Assembly (NCBI GenBank): GCA_001896545.1
Contig: MPOT01000027.1
Coordinates: 1 to 64,000, forward strand
Direction of reading: 5' to 3'
DNA length: 64,000 nt
Origin: Tepidanaerobacter sp. EBM-38
GTDB lineage: Bacteria > Bacillota > Thermosediminibacteria > Thermosediminibacterales > Tepidanaerobacteraceae
In this document: positions 7,998 through 20,132 of the stretch, in pieces
Layout: the number at the start of each line of letters is the position of its first letter
How positions within the stretch are numbered: the stretch's first letter is position 1
The notes under the pieces: model-generated
Databases searched by the model: none
Told to the model about the DNA's origin: nothing
What the model saw: only the letters and a program-made list of their open reading frames with translations
Translations under genes and position numbers: made by a program

Positions 7998-8543
7998 TTG
8001 TTAAATAATGACATAGAGAGGGTTTTAATAACTGAAAAACAGCTTAGAGAGAAAGTAGAGCAGTTAGGAAAAAAAATTAGCAGCGACTATAAAAACAGTG
8101 ATAATTTCCTTATGGTAGGCGTGCTTAAAGGTGCTGTGGTATTTATGTCTGATTTGATTCGATGTGTCAATCTTCCACTGCAGATTGATTTCATGGCCGT
8201 ATCAAGTTATGGCACTTCTACGGAGTCATCGGGCGTTGTAAGAATTTTAAAGGATCTTGATGAATCTGTGGAAGGTAAGGATGTTTTAATAATTGAGGAT
8301 ATAATCGATTCCGGTTTGACTCTCAGTTATATGTATAACATATTAAAATCTCGCAAGCCTGCCAGTATTAAAATTTGTGCATTACTTGATAAGCCAAGCC
8401 GCAGAAAAGTAGAGTTAGATGTAGATTATCTGGGATTTGAAATTCCCGATTATTTTGTTGTTGGATATGGCCTTGATTATGCTGGGAAATACCGAAATTT
8501 GTGCGATGTTTGCGTATTAAAACCGGAGATTTATCAGGATTAA
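7998..8543 (+). CDS. hpt: Hypoxanthine phosphoribosyltransferase
   Basis: A 181-residue purine salvage enzyme that makes IMP/GMP from hypoxanthine or guanine and PRPP in the cytoplasm. The PRPP-binding loop VLIIEDIIDSGLTL (about residues 94-107) and the flexible-loop SYGTSTESSG region are diagnostic, and the C-terminal VVGYGLDYAGKYRNL is the usual family ending. It starts with TTG at 7998 directly behind AGGAGG. hpt followed by ftsH is a very common Firmicute pairing. Length is as expected. Confidence 0.95.
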   Translation: MLNNDIERVLITEKQLREKVEQLGKKISSDYKNSDNFLMVGVLKGAVVFMSDLIRCVNLPLQIDFMAVSSYGTSTESSGVVRILKDLDESVEGKDVLIIEDIIDSGLTLSYMYNILKSRKPASIKICALLDKPSRRKVELDVDYLGFEIPDYFVVGYGLDYAGKYRNLCDVCVLKPEIYQD

Positions 8544-8579
8544 CAATAAATCGAGAGGTGTATATAAGATTTTGTTTAA

Positions 8580-8608
8580 TTGTAAAAATGTTTTGTGTGT
8601 GGTAAAAT
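8580..8608 (+). promoter_or_regulatory. Predicted sigma-A promoter for ftsH
   Basis: TTGTAA (8580-8585), a 17-base spacer, then TAAAAT (8603-8608), placed 38 bp before the ftsH start. So ftsH can be transcribed independently of hpt. Confidence 0.6.
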
Positions 8609-8645
8609 ATCGTGGGATAACTAAATCCGGGAAGGAGGAGAATTA

Positions 8646-10445
8646 TTGAACAACTTTTTCAAGAGCATAAGCTTTTACTTGCTAATTATTATTCTGGTCT
8701 TGTCAGTGGTACAATGGTATTCTAACCAGGAAGCAGCTCAGATTAGACTGGGATATTCAGAATTACTTCAGCGAATTGACAATAAAGAGGTTGAAAAAAT
8801 TGTTATAGTTGAAAACAACATTAAAGGCACTTTAAAAGATGGTCAAAATTTTGTAAGCTATGTCCCGGATCTGACTACTTTTATGGCTAAAATAGATCAA
8901 CCTGCAAGAAAAGGTGAATTAGTAGTTGATTCAGAACCTAAACCTACCACTCCTTGGTGGACACAGATTTTATCGCCGATTTTACTGATGGTATTTATAG
9001 TAGGTGCATGGTATTTCTTAATGCAGCAGAGCCAAGGCGGAGGCGGCCGAGTGATGTCTTTCGGTAAGAGCAAGGCTAAACTTCATACTGATGATAAAAG
9101 AAGAGTAACCTTTAAAGATGTTGCAGGGGTTGATGAGGCAAAAGAAGAACTAGAAGAGGTAGTGGAATTTTTAAAGCATCCGAAGAAGTTTATAGAAATC
9201 GGAGCACGTATTCCCAAGGGGGTTTTGCTGGTAGGGCCTCCGGGAACAGGAAAAACGCTTTTAGCAAGGGCAGTTGCTGGAGAAGCAGGTGTTCCATTCT
9301 TTAGCATAAGCGGTTCAGATTTTGTAGAAATGTTTGTAGGTGTAGGAGCTGCAAGAGTTAGGGATTTGTTCGAACAGGCTAAAAAAAATTCACCATGTAT
9401 TGTGTTTATCGATGAGATAGATGCCGTTGGCCGCCACAGGGGTGCAGGGCTTGGTGGAGGACATGATGAAAGAGAACAAACATTAAATCAATTATTGGTT
9501 GAGATGGATGGTTTTGGTATAAATGAAGGTATAATTATTTTAGCAGCAACTAACAGGCCTGATATCTTAGATCCGGCACTGCTTAGGCCTGGCAGATTCG
9601 ATAGAGAAGTAGTAGTGGATCGTCCTGATGTAAAGGGCAGAGAAGAAATACTGAAAGTGCATTCAAGGAACAAGCCGTTGGCAGAAGATGTAGATCTGTC
9701 GGTACTTGCCCGAAGGACACCAGGGTTTACCGGGGCCGATTTAGAAAACTTGGTCAACGAGGCGGCACTTCTTTCAGCACGGCGAAATAAGAAAAAGATA
9801 GAAATGCCGGAGCTGGAAGAGGCAATTACCAGAGTTATTGCCGGCCCTGAAAAGAAGAGCCGTGTCATGACTGAACGTGAGCGCAGGCTGGTAGCTTACC
9901 ATGAAGCAGGGCATGCCGTAGTGGCACATTTGTTGCCAACAGTTGATCCAGTCCATGAGGTGTCTATTGTACCCCGCGGCAGGGCTGGCGGATATACTAT
10001 GATTTTACCAAAAGAGGATCGCTTCTTTATGGGTAAAAGTGAATTGATGGATCAGATAACGCATTTGCTTGGCGGCAGGGTTTCCGAAGAATTAGTGCTC
10101 AACGAAATAAGTACCGGTGCACAGAATGATTTGGAGCGAGCAACTCAGATTGCCAGAAAGATGGTAATGGAATTTGGTATGAGCGAGAATATTGGGCCTA
10201 TGACTTTGGGCCATAAGCAAGAAGAAGTTTTCCTGGGAAGGGATTTAGCTCAAGGCCGAAATTACAGTGAGGAAGTCGCAGCTTCCATAGATAAGGAAGT
10301 TAAGAACATTATTGTAAGCTGTTATGATAGTGCAAGAATGATTTTATCTGAAAATATCAATAAACTTCATAAGGTTGCTCAAGCCTTACTTGAAAATGAA
10401 AAGCTCAAAGAAGAAGAATTCTTGGAAGTATTTGCAAGTGTATAA
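8646..10445 (+). CDS. ftsH: ATP-dependent zinc metalloprotease FtsH
   Basis: A 599-residue membrane-anchored AAA+ protease that degrades misfolded membrane proteins and selected regulators. Two N-terminal membrane segments (about residues 7-24 and 106-126) bracket an extracytoplasmic domain of about 80 residues. The Walker A motif GPPGTGKT is at about 197-204, Walker B IVFIDEID follows, the second region of homology has [19 protein letters not shown], and the zinc site HEAGH is at 419-423. All key residues are intact. It starts at TTG 8646 behind GGAGGAG and ends 21 bp before a strong terminator, so it is the last gene of its unit. Confidence 0.97.
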
Positions 10446-14637: not shown

Positions 14638-14685
14638 AATCAAGAGTGCTTAACCTTTTTTAAGGTTAAGCACTCTTGATTTTTT
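14638..14685 (+). terminator. Strong rho-independent terminator
   Basis: Perfect 20-bp stem starting aatcaagagtgcttaacctt, loop TTTT, then a T-run. Ends the dusB/HxxEH transcript, directly beside the repeat copy. Confidence 0.92.
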
Positions 14686-14741
14686 GTATGACATGGTATA
14701 AAATAGTATGAGCACAAAAATGTGCACAAGGAGGTGCTGCT

Positions 14742-15272
14742 GTGGATCTCATAAGAATTGGAGATAAGCTTATCAGTGTATCGCGTATAGAGAATATTAT
14801 ACAAGAAATGCTGGATTTAAGGCAGCAAGGGGTTTCTCAAGCTGAGGTTGCCAAAAAGTTTAATACTGACAGGACCTTCCTATCCCGCTTGGAAAGCCTG
14901 GGTGAAATCAGAAAAGGTAAAACCATAGCAATAGTCGGGTTTCCTTTAAAAAATACTGAAGAACTTAAGCAGCTAGCATTTCAGGAAGGTGTAGACTTTT
15001 CACTGCTGATGACTGATAAAGAGCGCTGGGATTTTGTTTATGAAAAAAGCGGCATCGAACTTTTAAATGAGGTTATGGGCCTTATATATCAAGTAAGACA
15101 GTATGATGTGGTTATTCTGCTAGGTTCTGACCAAAGACTTAGACTATTCAAGGCACTTTTGGATAAGGAAGTGATTTCGGTAGACATTGGTAAATCACCG
15201 ATGACAGAAGATGTTTATGTAGACCCGCAAAATTTGAGGAAGATCATAAGAATGACAAAAAAGGAAGATTGA
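14742..15272 (+). CDS. HTH DNA-binding protein, first gene of acyl-reductase-like cluster
   Basis: A 176-residue protein. Residues 15-55 read as a helix-turn-helix (LDLRQQGVSQAEVAKKFNTDRTFLSRLESLG in two parts), the remainder as a small alpha/beta domain with TIAIVGFPLKN and YDVVILLGSD, which look like nucleotide-binding or Rossmann-like strands of unknown ligand. It starts with GTG 14742 behind AAGGAGGTG. It ends one base before the next gene, so the three genes 14742-17285 are very likely one operon and this protein is a candidate regulator of it. Not a recognised family beyond the HTH. Confidence 0.7.
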   Translation: MDLIRIGDKLISVSRIENIIQEMLDLRQQGVSQAEVAKKFNTDRTFLSRLESLGEIRKGKTIAIVGFPLKNTEELKQLAFQEGVDFSLLMTDKERWDFVYEKSGIELLNEVMGLIYQVRQYDVVILLGSDQRLRLFKALLDKEVISVDIGKSPMTEDVYVDPQNLRKIIRMTKKED

Positions 15273-15273
15273 A

Positions 15274-16179
15274 ATGAAACATGTTATGAGCGTGAGTATA
15301 GGTTCTTCCAAGAGAAATCACAAAGTCGAAACAAAAATTCTAGGAGAAGAATTCATAATTGAGCGAGTAGGAACTGATGGTGACATAAAAAAGGCCATAG
15401 AAATTATTCAGGAAAATGACGGCAAAGTTAGCGCCTTTGGCATGGGTGGCATCGATCTTTATGTGTGCATAGGCAATAAGCGCTTTACAATAAAAGATGC
15501 CGTACCCATAGCACAGGCAGCGAAAATATCGCCTATTGTTGATGGTTCGGGCCTTAAAAATACTTTAGAAAGAAAAGTCATATACTATCTAACAGAACAT
15601 GAAATTATAGATTTTAAAAACAAGAAAGTCCTTCTAGTGTGCGGTTTAGACAGATTTGGGATGGCGGAGGCATTAGAAAAAACCGGGTGTGATTTAGTGC
15701 TAGGAGATTTGATTTTTACAGTAGGCATACCGATTCCCATCAAATCACTTAATAGCCTAAATGTTTTGGCAAGTATTTTAGCTCCTATTATTTGCAAATT
15801 GCCGTTTAGCATGTTATATCCCACTGGAAAAAAACAGGAGAAAAAAGTCAGCTCGAAATTTGAGCGTTTCTATGATGAGGCTGATGTTATTGCTGGTGAT
15901 TTTCTTTTCATAAAACGCTATATGCCGGATAAAATCCCTGGCAAAATTATACTGACGAATACGGTTACTGCCGATGATGTAGAGATGCTTTCTAAAAGCG
16001 GTGCCAAAATGTTGATTACGACAACGCCCGAATTAAACGGCAGGTCCTTTGGAACTAATGTAATGGAAGCAGTACTTGTATCGCTTTCGGAAAAACCTTA
16101 TAAATCATTAACTCCCAAGGATTATGAAGAACTTTTAGATAAGCTTGGATTTGCTCCGAGGATAGAAATATTAAATTAG
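15274..16179 (+). CDS. Uncharacterised protein of the kind annotated quinate/shikimate dehydrogenase-like
   Basis: A 301-residue soluble protein. The N-terminal part has repeated beta-alpha units (FGMGGIDLYVCIGNKRFTI), and the central KKVLLVCGLDRFGMAEALEKTGCDLVLGD (about residues 113-141) looks like a Rossmann-type strand-turn-helix. I recall similar proteins in anaerobic Firmicutes carrying the label quinate 5-dehydrogenase, but the textbook GAGGA-type NAD site is absent, so the activity is unproven. It has no signal peptide; one hydrophobic stretch (about 160-180, LNSLNVLASILAPIICKLPF) could be buried. It is sandwiched, with gaps of 1 and 23 bp, between an HTH protein and an acyl-ACP-reductase-like enzyme, which implies a joint function. 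Confidence 0.6.
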   Translation: MKHVMSVSIGSSKRNHKVETKILGEEFIIERVGTDGDIKKAIEIIQENDGKVSAFGMGGIDLYVCIGNKRFTIKDAVPIAQAAKISPIVDGSGLKNTLERKVIYYLTEHEIIDFKNKKVLLVCGLDRFGMAEALEKTGCDLVLGDLIFTVGIPIPIKSLNSLNVLASILAPIICKLPFSMLYPTGKKQEKKVSSKFERFYDEADVIAGDFLFIKRYMPDKIPGKIILTNTVTADDVEMLSKSGAKMLITTTPELNGRSFGTNVMEAVLVSLSEKPYKSLTPKDYEELLDKLGFAPRIEILN

Positions 16180-16202
16180 AAAATAATTTATGAGGTGTAA
16201 TC

Positions 16203-17285
16203 ATGGAAAAGTTTGCATTTATAATACATCCTATTGAAATTTCTGATGTATACAGGAAATTAAAATTTATGCAGAAGCTGCCGGAAAGCATGGTAGAGAA
16301 AGCAATGAAGATAGTGCCGCCTTTTACAATTTCACATATAACAGGTGTGAAAAGTCAATACAATGAAGCAGAAGGTTGGTTTGTAACTTGCCCGCTTACA
16401 ACTAAACAAATGATAGAGCTGCCGGAAGAATATGTAATTAAAAAAATAATCAAAGCCGGAAAATTAGCTGAAAAGCTCGGTGCAAAGATAGTTGGCTTAG
16501 GAGCTTTCACTTCAGTTGTAGGAGATGCAGGCATCACCATTGCCAAAAATTTAAATATCCCCGTTACTACGGGCAACAGCTATACTGTAGCTACGGCAAT
16601 TGAAGGAACTAAAAAAGCCACGGAAATTATGGGTAAAAATATTAAAGATGCTCAAGTGTTGGTTATTGGGGCTGCCGGCTCTATAGGCAAGGTATGTGCA
16701 CAAATAATGGCTAAAGATTGCAAGTTTTTGACATTAGCCGGTAGGCATACGGAAAAGCTTGAAGAAGTGGCTGATAAGATACTGAAAGACACCGGCCTTT
16801 CTGTTAAAATCACTTCAAACGTCAGGGATGCTGTTAGAAATGCGGATGTAATCATAACCGTTACCAGCAGTCTTGATGCTATAATAGAGGCGGAAGACTT
16901 AAAACCGGGTGCGGTAGTGTGTGATGTTTCACGCCCGCGCGATGTATCCAAAGAAGTTGCTGAAAAGCGGGATGATGTTCTCATTATTGAAGGCGGAGTA
17001 GTTGAGGTTCCGGGTGATGTTAACTTCAATTTCAACTTTGGTTTTTCACCTAAAACTGCCTATGCCTGCATGGCAGAAACCATGATGCTAGCATTGGAAG
17101 GCCGTTATGAAAGCTTTTCTTTGGGCAGAGATCTTACCGTAAAGCAAGTTGAAGAAATAACGAAAATAGCCAATAAGCATGGCTTTAAATTGGCAGGATT
17201 CAGGAGCTTTGAAAGAGAAGTAACACAAGAACAGATAGAACGCATCATACGAAATGCAAAGAAGAAATCAGAACAGGCAAGCTGA
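16203..17285 (+). CDS. Long-chain acyl-ACP reductase-like dehydrogenase
   Basis: A 360-residue protein. Its pattern follows cyanobacterial long-chain acyl-[acyl-carrier-protein] reductase (AAR, about 340 residues): LGAFTSVVGDAG (99-110), TTGNSYTVATAIE (122-134), a Rossmann glycine loop VIGAAGSIGK (154-163), IIEGGVVEVPGDVNF (261-275) and AYACMAETMMLALEG (286-300) followed by SLGRDLTVKQVEEI. Cys289 aligns with the cysteine proposed to carry the acyl thioester in AAR. The reaction would be reduction of a fatty acyl thioester to an aldehyde with NAD(P)H, but the substrate here is unknown. No aldehyde deformylating oxygenase is nearby, as expected for an anaerobe. Start ATG behind GAGGTGTAATC. Confidence 0.72.
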   Translation: MEKFAFIIHPIEISDVYRKLKFMQKLPESMVEKAMKIVPPFTISHITGVKSQYNEAEGWFVTCPLTTKQMIELPEEYVIKKIIKAGKLAEKLGAKIVGLGAFTSVVGDAGITIAKNLNIPVTTGNSYTVATAIEGTKKATEIMGKNIKDAQVLVIGAAGSIGKVCAQIMAKDCKFLTLAGRHTEKLEEVADKILKDTGLSVKITSNVRDAVRNADVIITVTSSLDAIIEAEDLKPGAVVCDVSRPRDVSKEVAEKRDDVLIIEGGVVEVPGDVNFNFNFGFSPKTAYACMAETMMLALEGRYESFSLGRDLTVKQVEEITKIANKHGFKLAGFRSFEREVTQEQIERIIRNAKKKSEQAS

Positions 17286-17291
17286 CAGCTT

Positions 17292-17333
17292 AAAATCCCA
17301 TCTGCTCTTTTTGGAGTGGATGGGATTTTATTC
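17292..17333 (+). terminator. Rho-independent terminator after the acyl-reductase-like cluster
   Basis: Stem of 16 pairs between aaaatcccatctgctc and gagtggatgggatttt (one mismatch, one wobble), loop tttttg, then a T-rich tail. Confidence 0.85.
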
Positions 17334-18679: not shown

Positions 18680-18719
18680 ACTATGTTTGGACCACTTAAA
18701 ATGTGGGCCTAAACATAGT
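18680..18719 (+). promoter_or_regulatory. Hairpin just before the AmmeMemo gene
   Basis: actatgtttgg-accac pairs with gtggg-cctaaacatagt, giving about 15 base pairs with a short loop. No T-run follows; the GAGGAGGT ribosome site begins 5 bases later. Could be an operator, mRNA stabiliser or translational control element. Confidence 0.4.
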
Positions 18720-18737
18720 ATACGAGGAGGTCCGAAA

Positions 18738-20132
18738 ATGAGCAAGTTGTCAGGTTATCTGATGCCACATCCGCCGATTATGGTAGAGGAAGTTGGCAGA
18801 GGCGAAACTCAAAAGGTAATTTCATCTGTAAATGCTGCTAATGTGGTGGGCAAAGAAATTAAAGAATTATCTCCAGACACCGTAGTTATTATATCTCCCC
18901 ATGGCCCTATATTTTCCGACGCATTGTGCATTTATGATTTTCCGTTAAAGGGCAGTCTTGCAGCATTTGGGGCACCTGAAGTTAAGATGAGTTTTGAGCG
19001 TGATGATGATTTAGCAAATGAACTGCGCAAAAGGGCAAATCAGCACGGTATTCCTACAGTGACAACCAGTGAAGTAAGGGTGACAAGATATGGGTTTAAA
19101 GAAGAGCTGGACCATGGAGTAATAGTGCCGATGTATTTTATAACAAAGTATTATTCAAACTTTAAATTACTGCCTTTGGCCTTTGGCATGCTGCCGTATG
19201 AGCAGTTATATGCTTTTGGAAAACTTATACAAGAATCTGCAAAAGTGCTCAATAAAAACATAGCAGTGATAGCAAGTGGCGACCTTTCTCACAGGCTTAC
19301 CATAGATGCGCCGGCAGGGTATGACCCCTGTGGAAAATTATTTGATGAAAAACTGGTAAATGCCTTGAAGAAATTTGATTTGGAAGCCCTGCGGTCTATA
19401 GAACCTTCGATAATAGAAAGGGCTGGCGAATGCGGACTTAGGTCTATTTGGATTATGGCAGGTGCATTAGATGGCTATAAGGTAAGAGCAGAAGTGCTTT
19501 CTTATGAGGGGCCTTTTGGAGTCGGTTACTGTATAGCAAGGTTTAAGCCGGAAGATGAAAGTGAATCTGGCAAGTTCAGCAAGAATAGCGTGAAAACCAC
19601 TGATACTCAAGAGAAAACAGAAGATCCGTATGTAAAACTGGCTCGTTACACTCTGGAAACTTATGTTAAAGATGGAATAATACCTGATTTGCCTATTGAG
19701 GATTTACCTGAGGAAATGCTAACCAAAAGAGCGGGAGTTTTTGTTTCAATAAAAAAACATGGAGAGCTGCGTGGATGTATAGGGACTTTTTTACCAACTT
19801 GCAAGAATATTGCCGAAGAGATTCAAAGAAACGCTATCAGTGCCGGATGTGAAGACCCGAGATTTTATCCTGTTACAGCAGAAGAATTACCTGAACTCGA
19901 GTATTCCGTTGATGTACTGACAGAACCTAGGCCTGTTTACAGCTTAGATGAGCTTGATCCTAAAAAATACGGTATTCTTGTGCAAAAAGGTTTTAGATCC
20001 GGTCTTTTATTGCCCGATTTGGACGGTGTTGACACTGTAGAACAGCAGTTAAGTATAGCACTTGCAAAAGCCGGCATAAGTCCTGATGAGAAATATCAAA
20101 TAAAAAAATTTGAGGTGGTCAGGCATTCTTAA
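18738..20132 (+). CDS. AmmeMemoRadiSam system fusion protein (Memo-like plus AMMECR1 domains)
   Basis: About 464 residues with two fused domains. Residues 1-270 are a Memo/LigB-like domain ([49 protein letters not shown]), containing the His residues of this fold. Residues about 295-464 are an AMMECR1 domain with the invariant LRGCIGTF and [21 protein letters not shown]. Families of this kind co-occur with a radical SAM enzyme (here at 24152) and are named AmmeMemoRadiSam; their biochemical role is not established. I start at ATG 18738 behind GAGGAGGTCCG; the earlier ATG at 18687 lies inside the hairpin and lacks a site. The gene converges on the HD-GYP gene with 14 bp between the stops. Confidence 0.88.

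Follow-up and report, generated by a model that had tools for sequence, protein, structure and literature searches.

What does an anaerobic bacterium do with an enzyme that resembles cyanobacterial acyl-ACP reductase (AAR; ACP, acyl carrier protein)? The question is raised by a three-gene cluster in a 64,000-nucleotide stretch of Tepidanaerobacter sp. EBM-38 (contig MPOT01000027.1, positions 1 to 64,000; hereafter the window). An earlier note on this DNA had described three open reading frames (ORFs) with gaps of 1 and 23 bp and had taken them for a helix-turn-helix (HTH) protein, a protein of the kind labelled quinate dehydrogenase and an AAR-like enzyme. The coordinates agree, all three lie on the plus strand, and we refer to the genes of the trio as g1 (14742-15272; GTG start, 176 aa), g2 (15274-16179; 301 aa) and g3 (16203-17285; 360 aa), to thioester reductases as TR and to class III aminotransferases as TA. 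Surveyed genomes carry G-numbers, with G000 the window's own genome, and surveyed loci carry L-numbers. The reading we favour, and consider somewhat probable, is that g1 encodes a transcription factor which regulates its own operon and acyl-thioester metabolism, and g3 an enzyme that converts a fatty acyl thioester to an aldehyde. It rests on the family of g3 and on an operator-like palindrome upstream of g1, absent from the earlier note, that connects the trio with TA-TR fusions and fatty-acid synthesis (fab) operons.

Results

By profile matches and aligned residues, g3 is a member of the Cys-dependent thioester-reductase family of PigE, TamH and cyanobacterial AAR. Its best NCBIfam model was that of PigE (NF053554; 231.9 bits over positions 1-362 of 837, below the cut-off of 850), and the second was acyl-ACP reductase (TIGR04058; 112.3 bits, below the cut-off of 449.7). 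Among solved structures, PigE 4ppm ranked first (1.8e-34) and AAR 6jzq next (5e-21). Both AAR landmarks that had been pointed out, the loop G156-A-A-G159-S-I-G162 and Cys289, are present. Cys289 falls on a Cys of both AAR 6jzq and PigE 4ppm; in AAR this is Cys294 (numbered backwards from the last residue of the chain as printed), the active residue according to PMC9594044. Other positions that align with AAR and PigE are Glu292, Gly156 and Gly159 of the loop, and a GN pair (124-125); PigE itself has a Cys at the last Gly of the GxxGxxG loop (156-162 in g3). Thus g3 has the catalytic Cys and GxxGxxG of the superfamily, in an alignment over most of its length. The Rossmann domain matches PF01488 (61 bits, residues 139-257), and placement among the AroE shikimate dehydrogenases found no support, the model TIGR00507 giving 25.7 bits against a cut-off of 200.2. 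The AAR assignment therefore holds as far as an AAR-like protein with the expected Cys is concerned, but the PigE thioester reductase ranks first and the TIGR04058 cut-off is missed.

In a FastTree phylogeny with AAR and PigE as the only two outgroups, one clade (0.995) gathers 18 of the 19 TR domains that belong to fusions, and a second (0.933) unites one fusion with the stand-alone TRs of Bacillota, separate from AAR and PigE. The Cys is retained in 80 of 101 rows of an alignment of TRs and proteins in the third position of the trio (slot 3), namely 72/93 not fused and 8/8 fused; these rows include duplicate contigs (e.g. L053/L092, L077/L145), partial proteins (L144, L139) and non-TR rows (L109, L134 second ORF). 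PigE and TamH convert an acyl thioester to an aldehyde, which a partner domain then aminates (PMC8341465, PMC9594044). By analogy with them, g3 may reduce an acyl thioester to an aldehyde, and acyl-ACP is favoured as its substrate because amine formation by TamH was seen with ACP-bound C12 and NADH but not with C12-CoA (PMC9594044). The absence of a nearby deformylating oxygenase, noted earlier, extends to whole genomes: PF11266 was found in 0 of 149 related genomes, including the window's own, with Synechococcus elongatus as a positive control.

A palindrome of 19-20 bp, TGWRCACA-N3/4-TGTGYWCA, recurs upstream of g1. In the window it reads TGAGCACAAAAATGTGCACA (14709-14728, plus strand; halves TGWRCACA and TGTGYWCA, spacer 4 bp) and follows a putative promoter of the trio, placed by eye on the same strand (14676-14704: TTGATT at 14676-14681, a 17 bp spacer, TAAAAT at 14699-14704). 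It is the sole match in the window at two or fewer mismatches (0.19 expected by shuffling), and the genome has exactly one exact site. Within 150 bp upstream of g1, a site of at least 14/16 was found in 87 of 94 distinct loci, all taken before the motif was known, compared with 0.07% of 9,400 shuffles, and none of 285 control regions upstream of dusB, coaX, greA and lysS reached 13/16. The exact pattern occurs in 51 of the 149 genomes and in 105 of 398 in a second, overlapping set, always once per genome; the reversed control pattern was found in 0 genomes of either set.

The g1 protein matches HTH_3 at 18.3 bits, under the cut-off of 23, and has a small alpha/beta C-terminal domain. Its AF2 model has a pLDDT of 88.3, a fold search with it gave no PDB match at E 0.001, and the FapR model NF003359 was not among its NCBIfam matches at E up to 1. 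From its HTH and the site ahead of it, we propose g1 as an autoregulated transcription factor of acyl-thioester metabolism that would bind the palindrome.

In the second survey, we sorted 65 exact-site loci by the gene that follows the palindrome; 12 of these loci belong to genomes of the first set of 149. The palindrome stands before g1 in 41, before a TR gene in 14, before g2 in one and before other genes in nine. Thirteen of the 14 TR genes are fusions (one cut by a contig end) and one is stand-alone; the fusions have the architecture of TamH, with an aminotransferase part that matches Pfam Aminotran_3. Five of the nine other targets, all in family f88, are sites before a BioF/Kbl-type alpha-oxoamine synthase (L357-L361), which was examined in L357; there a serine palmitoyltransferase model also matches it, at 392 bits, neither match reaching its cut-off. 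The remaining four are another class I/II PLP enzyme, a DegV/FakB protein and two sites near MarR/ABC genes (L316/L317 of family f41, from two genomes of a single genus). Three fusions, too, have DegV-like proteins nearby (one of them checked).

Of 14 fusions located apart from both g1 and g2, nine (L075, L087, L193-L199) have a site scoring 13-16 within 250 bp ahead of the gene or within its first 60 bp; 4,000 shuffles gave a maximum of 14, with 93 reaching 13. Five further fusions follow g1 or g2 (L070, L073, L077, L134, L202) and have a 15/16 site in the locus, which in L070 and L077 is upstream of g1. As a control, 162 other ORFs in the fusion loci were searched; seven had a 15-16 site upstream, and these were g1 itself (three) or genes of the same intergenic stretch (four). 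Aldehyde:ferredoxin oxidoreductase (AOR), present in 89 of the 149 genomes, adjoins two fusion loci, L077 and L196. Neither a TA-TR fusion nor an AOR was found in the window's genome, where AOR was thus rejected as a partner.

The palindrome might instead be the site of another transcription factor, with g1 as one target among several. An exact site precedes a fusion in G060, a genome with no g1 match, and the sites in family f88 precede an alpha-oxoamine synthase. We consider this unlikely, given that 41 of the 65 exact sites are at g1, that g1 is present in 50 of the 51 exact-site genomes versus 53 of the 98 without one, and that finding a regulator's site at its own promoter normally indicates autoregulation.

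In some genomes the same site stands at fab genes, which were named from family models (acpP by eye in G125, fabG and acpP by eye in G043). An exact site in G125 lies between TATAAT and the fabH start, with fabK, fabD, fabG, acpP and fabF following. The fabH of L212 shows the order -10 box, operator, ribosome-binding site, similar to the promoter region of the trio. In G043 the fab operon is located between dusB and g1, with 15/16 sites both before fabH and before g1, and weaker sites (13-14 of 16) lie upstream of fabH in G040, G085, G094 and G123.

In the organisms where it was studied, FapR is autoregulated and controls fab genes from sites within or just after promoters (PMC5052256). A FapR match over cut-off was found in 114 of the 149 genomes, and the six genomes just listed are all without one. 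We compared the fabH regions of 40 genomes, 34 with FapR (three of these, G060, G141 and G148, without g1; G136, just below the cut-off, counted as FapR-bearing). FapR-less genomes with g1 were added later, to 14 in all including G125, while G087, G102, G061, G010 and G019 (no good fabH match) and G065 (no g1) were left out. At a threshold of 13/16 that was picked post hoc, a site within 400 bp upstream of fabH was found in 6 of the 14 FapR-less g1 genomes versus 0 of 31 FapR-bearing ones (p 3.7e-4), in a comparison of related, not independent, genomes from five families. Without G125, which was found first by the exact-site search, the counts are 5/13 versus 0/31 (p 1.2e-3).

The post hoc threshold is one of several points that count against the fab link. 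The G040 site is 350 bp from fabH, the G123 site lies within a 91-aa ORF antisense to fabH, and shuffling the 253 kb of fab regions gives about 16 expected sites of 13 and about 1 of 14. In G060, which has FapR but no g1, a 13/16 match sits within the gene ahead of fabH, at a distance of 316 bp; if it is counted, the comparison becomes 6/14 versus 1/34 (p 1.4e-3). No site was seen at fabH in eight of the 14 FapR-less g1 genomes, two 13/16 matches in G114 lie ahead of ackA instead, and the window's own genome has FapR (G000:C66:43727-44275) and no 13/16 site near fabH. An operator before fabH as a general rule is not supported by the fabH-region survey.

Across the 149 genomes, g2 was found in 120, any TR in 110 and g1 in 103. 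Stand-alone TRs occur in 96 of the TR genomes and fusions in 18, with both in 4. All 103 genomes with g1 also have g2, and 108 of the 120 genomes with g2 have a TR, compared with 2 of the 29 without it. Around 80 named g2 loci, many of them on short contigs, g1 lies directly before g2 in 63, a TR-like gene directly after in 58, and both in 49; the full set of g1, TR, dusB and greA or lysS was seen in 17. The trio is often found between dusB and greA-lysS (greA, lysS, coaX and dusB were named by similarity and eye), with the order coaX-dusB-g1-g2-g3-greA-lysS in Moorella thermoacetica (L153) and g1-g2-g3-greA-lysS in Thermoanaerobacter wiegelii (L098). Because the genes recur together across the phylum, the trio is more than a chance arrangement. 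Its earlier description as a candidate pathway is borne out in that the three genes form a unit, but this is a widespread array and not a local pathway.

The member most often absent or degenerate is stand-alone g3, with g2, or g1 and g2, retained. In some lineages the Cys of slot-3 homologues is replaced by S, A or W, and the strongly diverged Syntrophomonad-like and Caloramator proteins align with the g3 profile at hhalign E 1.3e-5 and 4.9e-8. These Cys-less homologues are possibly enzymes decaying in place into pseudoenzymes. Very diverged examples were seen at L116:4389-5519, L151:2321-3472, L074:7476-8510 and L086:7439-8347, and also in L114, L115 and L130.

The quinate-dehydrogenase label of g2 is unsupported, because the protein matches no Pfam or NCBIfam model, and we rejected this identity with no model match for g2 or its family members; a scan of 69 members gave scattered weak matches, with a best E of 0.0075. 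An AAR fold is predicted instead. In VIA-align, the nine entries that rank highest with the AF2 model of g2 (pLDDT 89.5) are each an AAR or the carmabin TAD, at Z 13.0-14.1 and an rmsd of 4.2-4.6 across 243-257 residues; next come malic enzyme and glutamate dehydrogenase, at Z 10.1 or lower. By Foldseek alone, sugar-binding proteins score equally high by E-value, but their TM-scores are lower. The predicted model thus matches AAR structurally at full length, and g2 is predicted to have the AAR/TR fold throughout. No sequence homology between g2 and g3 was detected by hhalign of their profiles (E 0.28), and the g2 profile found nothing below E 0.27 among solved sequences. The protein is without GxxGxxG; a conserved DRFG motif stands where the glycine loop would be. 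A weak g2-g3 profile alignment sets the invariant Asn262 opposite Cys289, and this Asn probably takes the place of the AAR catalytic Cys. Because many charged residues are invariant, g2 would seem to have a specific ligand or catalysis and not to be a mere scaffold.

Copies of g2 outside the trio were noted by eye. Second or orphan copies adjoin L,D-transpeptidase-, GerM-, cell-wall amidase- or glutamate mutase subunit-like proteins (L079, L084, L090, L157). In L135 and L171, g2 occurs without g1 or g3 and is followed by two genes resembling M16-type peptidases; in L135 an lgt-like gene follows as well.

In the window, a hairpin resembling an intrinsic terminator closes the unit (17291-17333, plus strand; AAAATCCCATC...GATGGGATTTT), and a second hairpin precedes the trio promoter; both were seen by eye. 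The window's genus has an MFS gene and an AMMECR1/Memo fusion after the trio, instead of greA-lysS. At 18687-20132, 3' of the trio, LigB/Memo-like and AMMECR1 parts are joined in one fused protein.

Discussion

On the reading we favour, g1 would bind the palindrome upstream of its own operon and, elsewhere, before TA-TR fusions or a fab operon. It would probably repress its targets and, as the sensor of an acyl-thioester-related ligand, release them on that signal. In g3, Cys289 would accept the acyl group, with acyl-ACP or acyl-CoA as the likeliest donor, and the bound group would be reduced with NAD(P)H to an aldehyde. Some lineages have a fused class III aminotransferase-TR in place of g3; this enzyme would convert the aldehyde further, to an amine. 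At the loci next to AOR (L077, L196), the aldehyde may be exchanged with the acid. For the window's genome, an alcohol or an ether lipid are candidate fates. The g2 protein may serve the same process as a sensor or partner, or may be an enzyme of other chemistry.

Some features of the loci sit poorly with this scheme. Five of the 14 fusions away from g1 have no site (L076, L192, L200, L201, L203), 2.5% of shuffles attain the 13/16 score found at L087, and the exact site at the G060 fusion occurs in a genome with no g1 detected. Twelve of the 120 g2 genomes have no TR match at E 1e-20, and several lineages have a Cys-less or very diverged slot-3 protein. In nine of 20 loci checked, slot 3 is empty, with dusB, g1 and/or g2, and then greA/lysS (L173, L174, L177, L178, L182, L183, L184, L185, L187; six from TR-less genomes and three from genomes with a fusion only). 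As g1 and/or g2 stay while slot 3 is empty, g2 would have a role without g3.

Might g3 act on a special non-fatty thioester, perhaps amino-acyl or dicarboxylic, in the making of a specialised metabolite, like PigE and the terminal reductases of natural-product synthases, the fab link being a side effect of a global regulator? Its closest solved relative, PigE, acts on a special thioester (PMC8341465), and the fold recurs in carmabin TAD. The wide distribution and housekeeping neighbourhood are unlike a specialised pathway, and the operator also stands before fabHKDG-acpP-fabF in two genomes and, in one case, before a DegV/FakB protein. We consider this reading unlikely.

Plasmalogens are found in anaerobes, and alkyl or alkenyl chains could conceivably derive from a fatty aldehyde, so that the trio could supply fatty aldehyde for plasmalogens or other ether lipids. 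Long PlsA-like ORFs (DUF2229, 979 aa or more) are rarer with g2, at least 14 of 120 genomes versus at least 15 of 29 without g2, where DUF2229 is a rough proxy, too broad in itself (138/149 genomes), and phylogeny was handled by family counts only. A replacement pathway would give the same negative pattern. In the known reductase route to plasmalogens, the vinyl ether arises from diacyl lipids (PMC9702350), which would require no free aldehyde. We regard such a supply role as quite improbable.

Slightly less credible still is that g3 works oxidatively in fermentation (aldehyde and CoA to acyl-CoA), or in a balance of short-chain acyl-CoA and aldehyde. The hosts are anaerobic, AOR adjoins the two fusion loci named above, and phosphate butyryltransferase- and butyrate kinase-like genes (ptb-buk) were seen by eye after g3 in L119. 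PigE and TamH were both assayed as reductases (PMC8341465, PMC9594044), and a site common with fab genes points to acyl-ACP. The L119 genes lie at 8060-10060, in a metagenome-assembled genome (MAG) named Clostridium thermobutyricum.

A sporulation or cell-wall function of the trio, suggested by the association of g2 with SpoIVA (both in 113 genomes, g2 only in 7, SpoIVA only in 17, neither in 12; p 7e-6) and by the orphan g2 copies beside L,D-transpeptidase-, GerM- and amidase-like proteins, is very unlikely, and the trio was rejected as sporulation genes on those 7 and 17 exceptions, with no spore gene among the identifiable operator targets. The main text of PMC3533761 has no mention of quinate, shikimate, COG5322, fatty acid or DUF.

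Returning to g1 as a regulator of acyl-thioester metabolism and g3 as an aldehyde-forming reductase, the kind of enzyme is known; the link between operator and regulon is the new part, and the regulon is apparently undescribed. In the open-licence PMC literature, searched by titles and abstract starts, no paper on the trio, the operator or the regulon was found. A more far-reaching version, which we put forward tentatively as a possibility, is that g1 heads an undescribed lipid regulon in anaerobic Bacillota controlling the diversion of acyl thioesters from the building of membranes, with control of fab genes in some of the lineages that have lost FapR, a Cys-less g2 as sensor or enzyme, and a fatty aldehyde or long-chain amine lipid as product. 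If true, the targets of the regulon would be TRs, aminotransferase-TR fusions, possibly alpha-oxoamine synthases and FakB-like proteins, and the product would be unreported from these bacteria in the literature searched.

One conserved operator links an uncharacterised regulator, a putative aldehyde-forming enzyme, a Pfam-less family and some fab operons. This bears on how anaerobic Firmicutes control acyl-ACP pools beyond FapR, and on why many of them carry an AAR-like reductase without an alkane pathway. The regulon can be tested in cultured genera such as Thermoanaerobacter, Moorella and Syntrophomonas. Possible uses include thermostable acyl-thioester reductases, TA-TR fusions and a transcription-factor sensor for fatty-acid engineering.

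Comparison with known systems

With shikimate/quinate dehydrogenases, g3 shares the Rossmann match to PF01488, but its aroE score is far below that model's cut-off, and g2 has no match whatever. Cyanobacterial AAR (TIGR04058; 6jzq) has in common with g3 the aligned cysteines, Cys294 and Cys289, and GxxGxxG; g3 differs in falling below the TIGR04058 cut-off and in lacking the deformylating oxygenase partner throughout the 149 genomes. The TR domains of PigE and TamH share the catalytic Cys and the Rossmann loop, and PigE is the best match in both NCBIfam and PDB. PigE is a TR-aminotransferase and TamH an aminotransferase-TR, whereas g3 is a single domain of 360 aa in an anaerobic host, at a locus among housekeeping genes.

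The FapR regulon of Bacillus and its relatives resembles the proposed g1 regulon in having a self-regulated site in or just after a promoter and fab genes as targets. It differs in that g1 has no match to the FapR model and in its operator and C-terminal domain, and many g1 genomes keep FapR too. Apart from one weak match in G060, g1-type sites at fabH are found only in FapR-less genomes.

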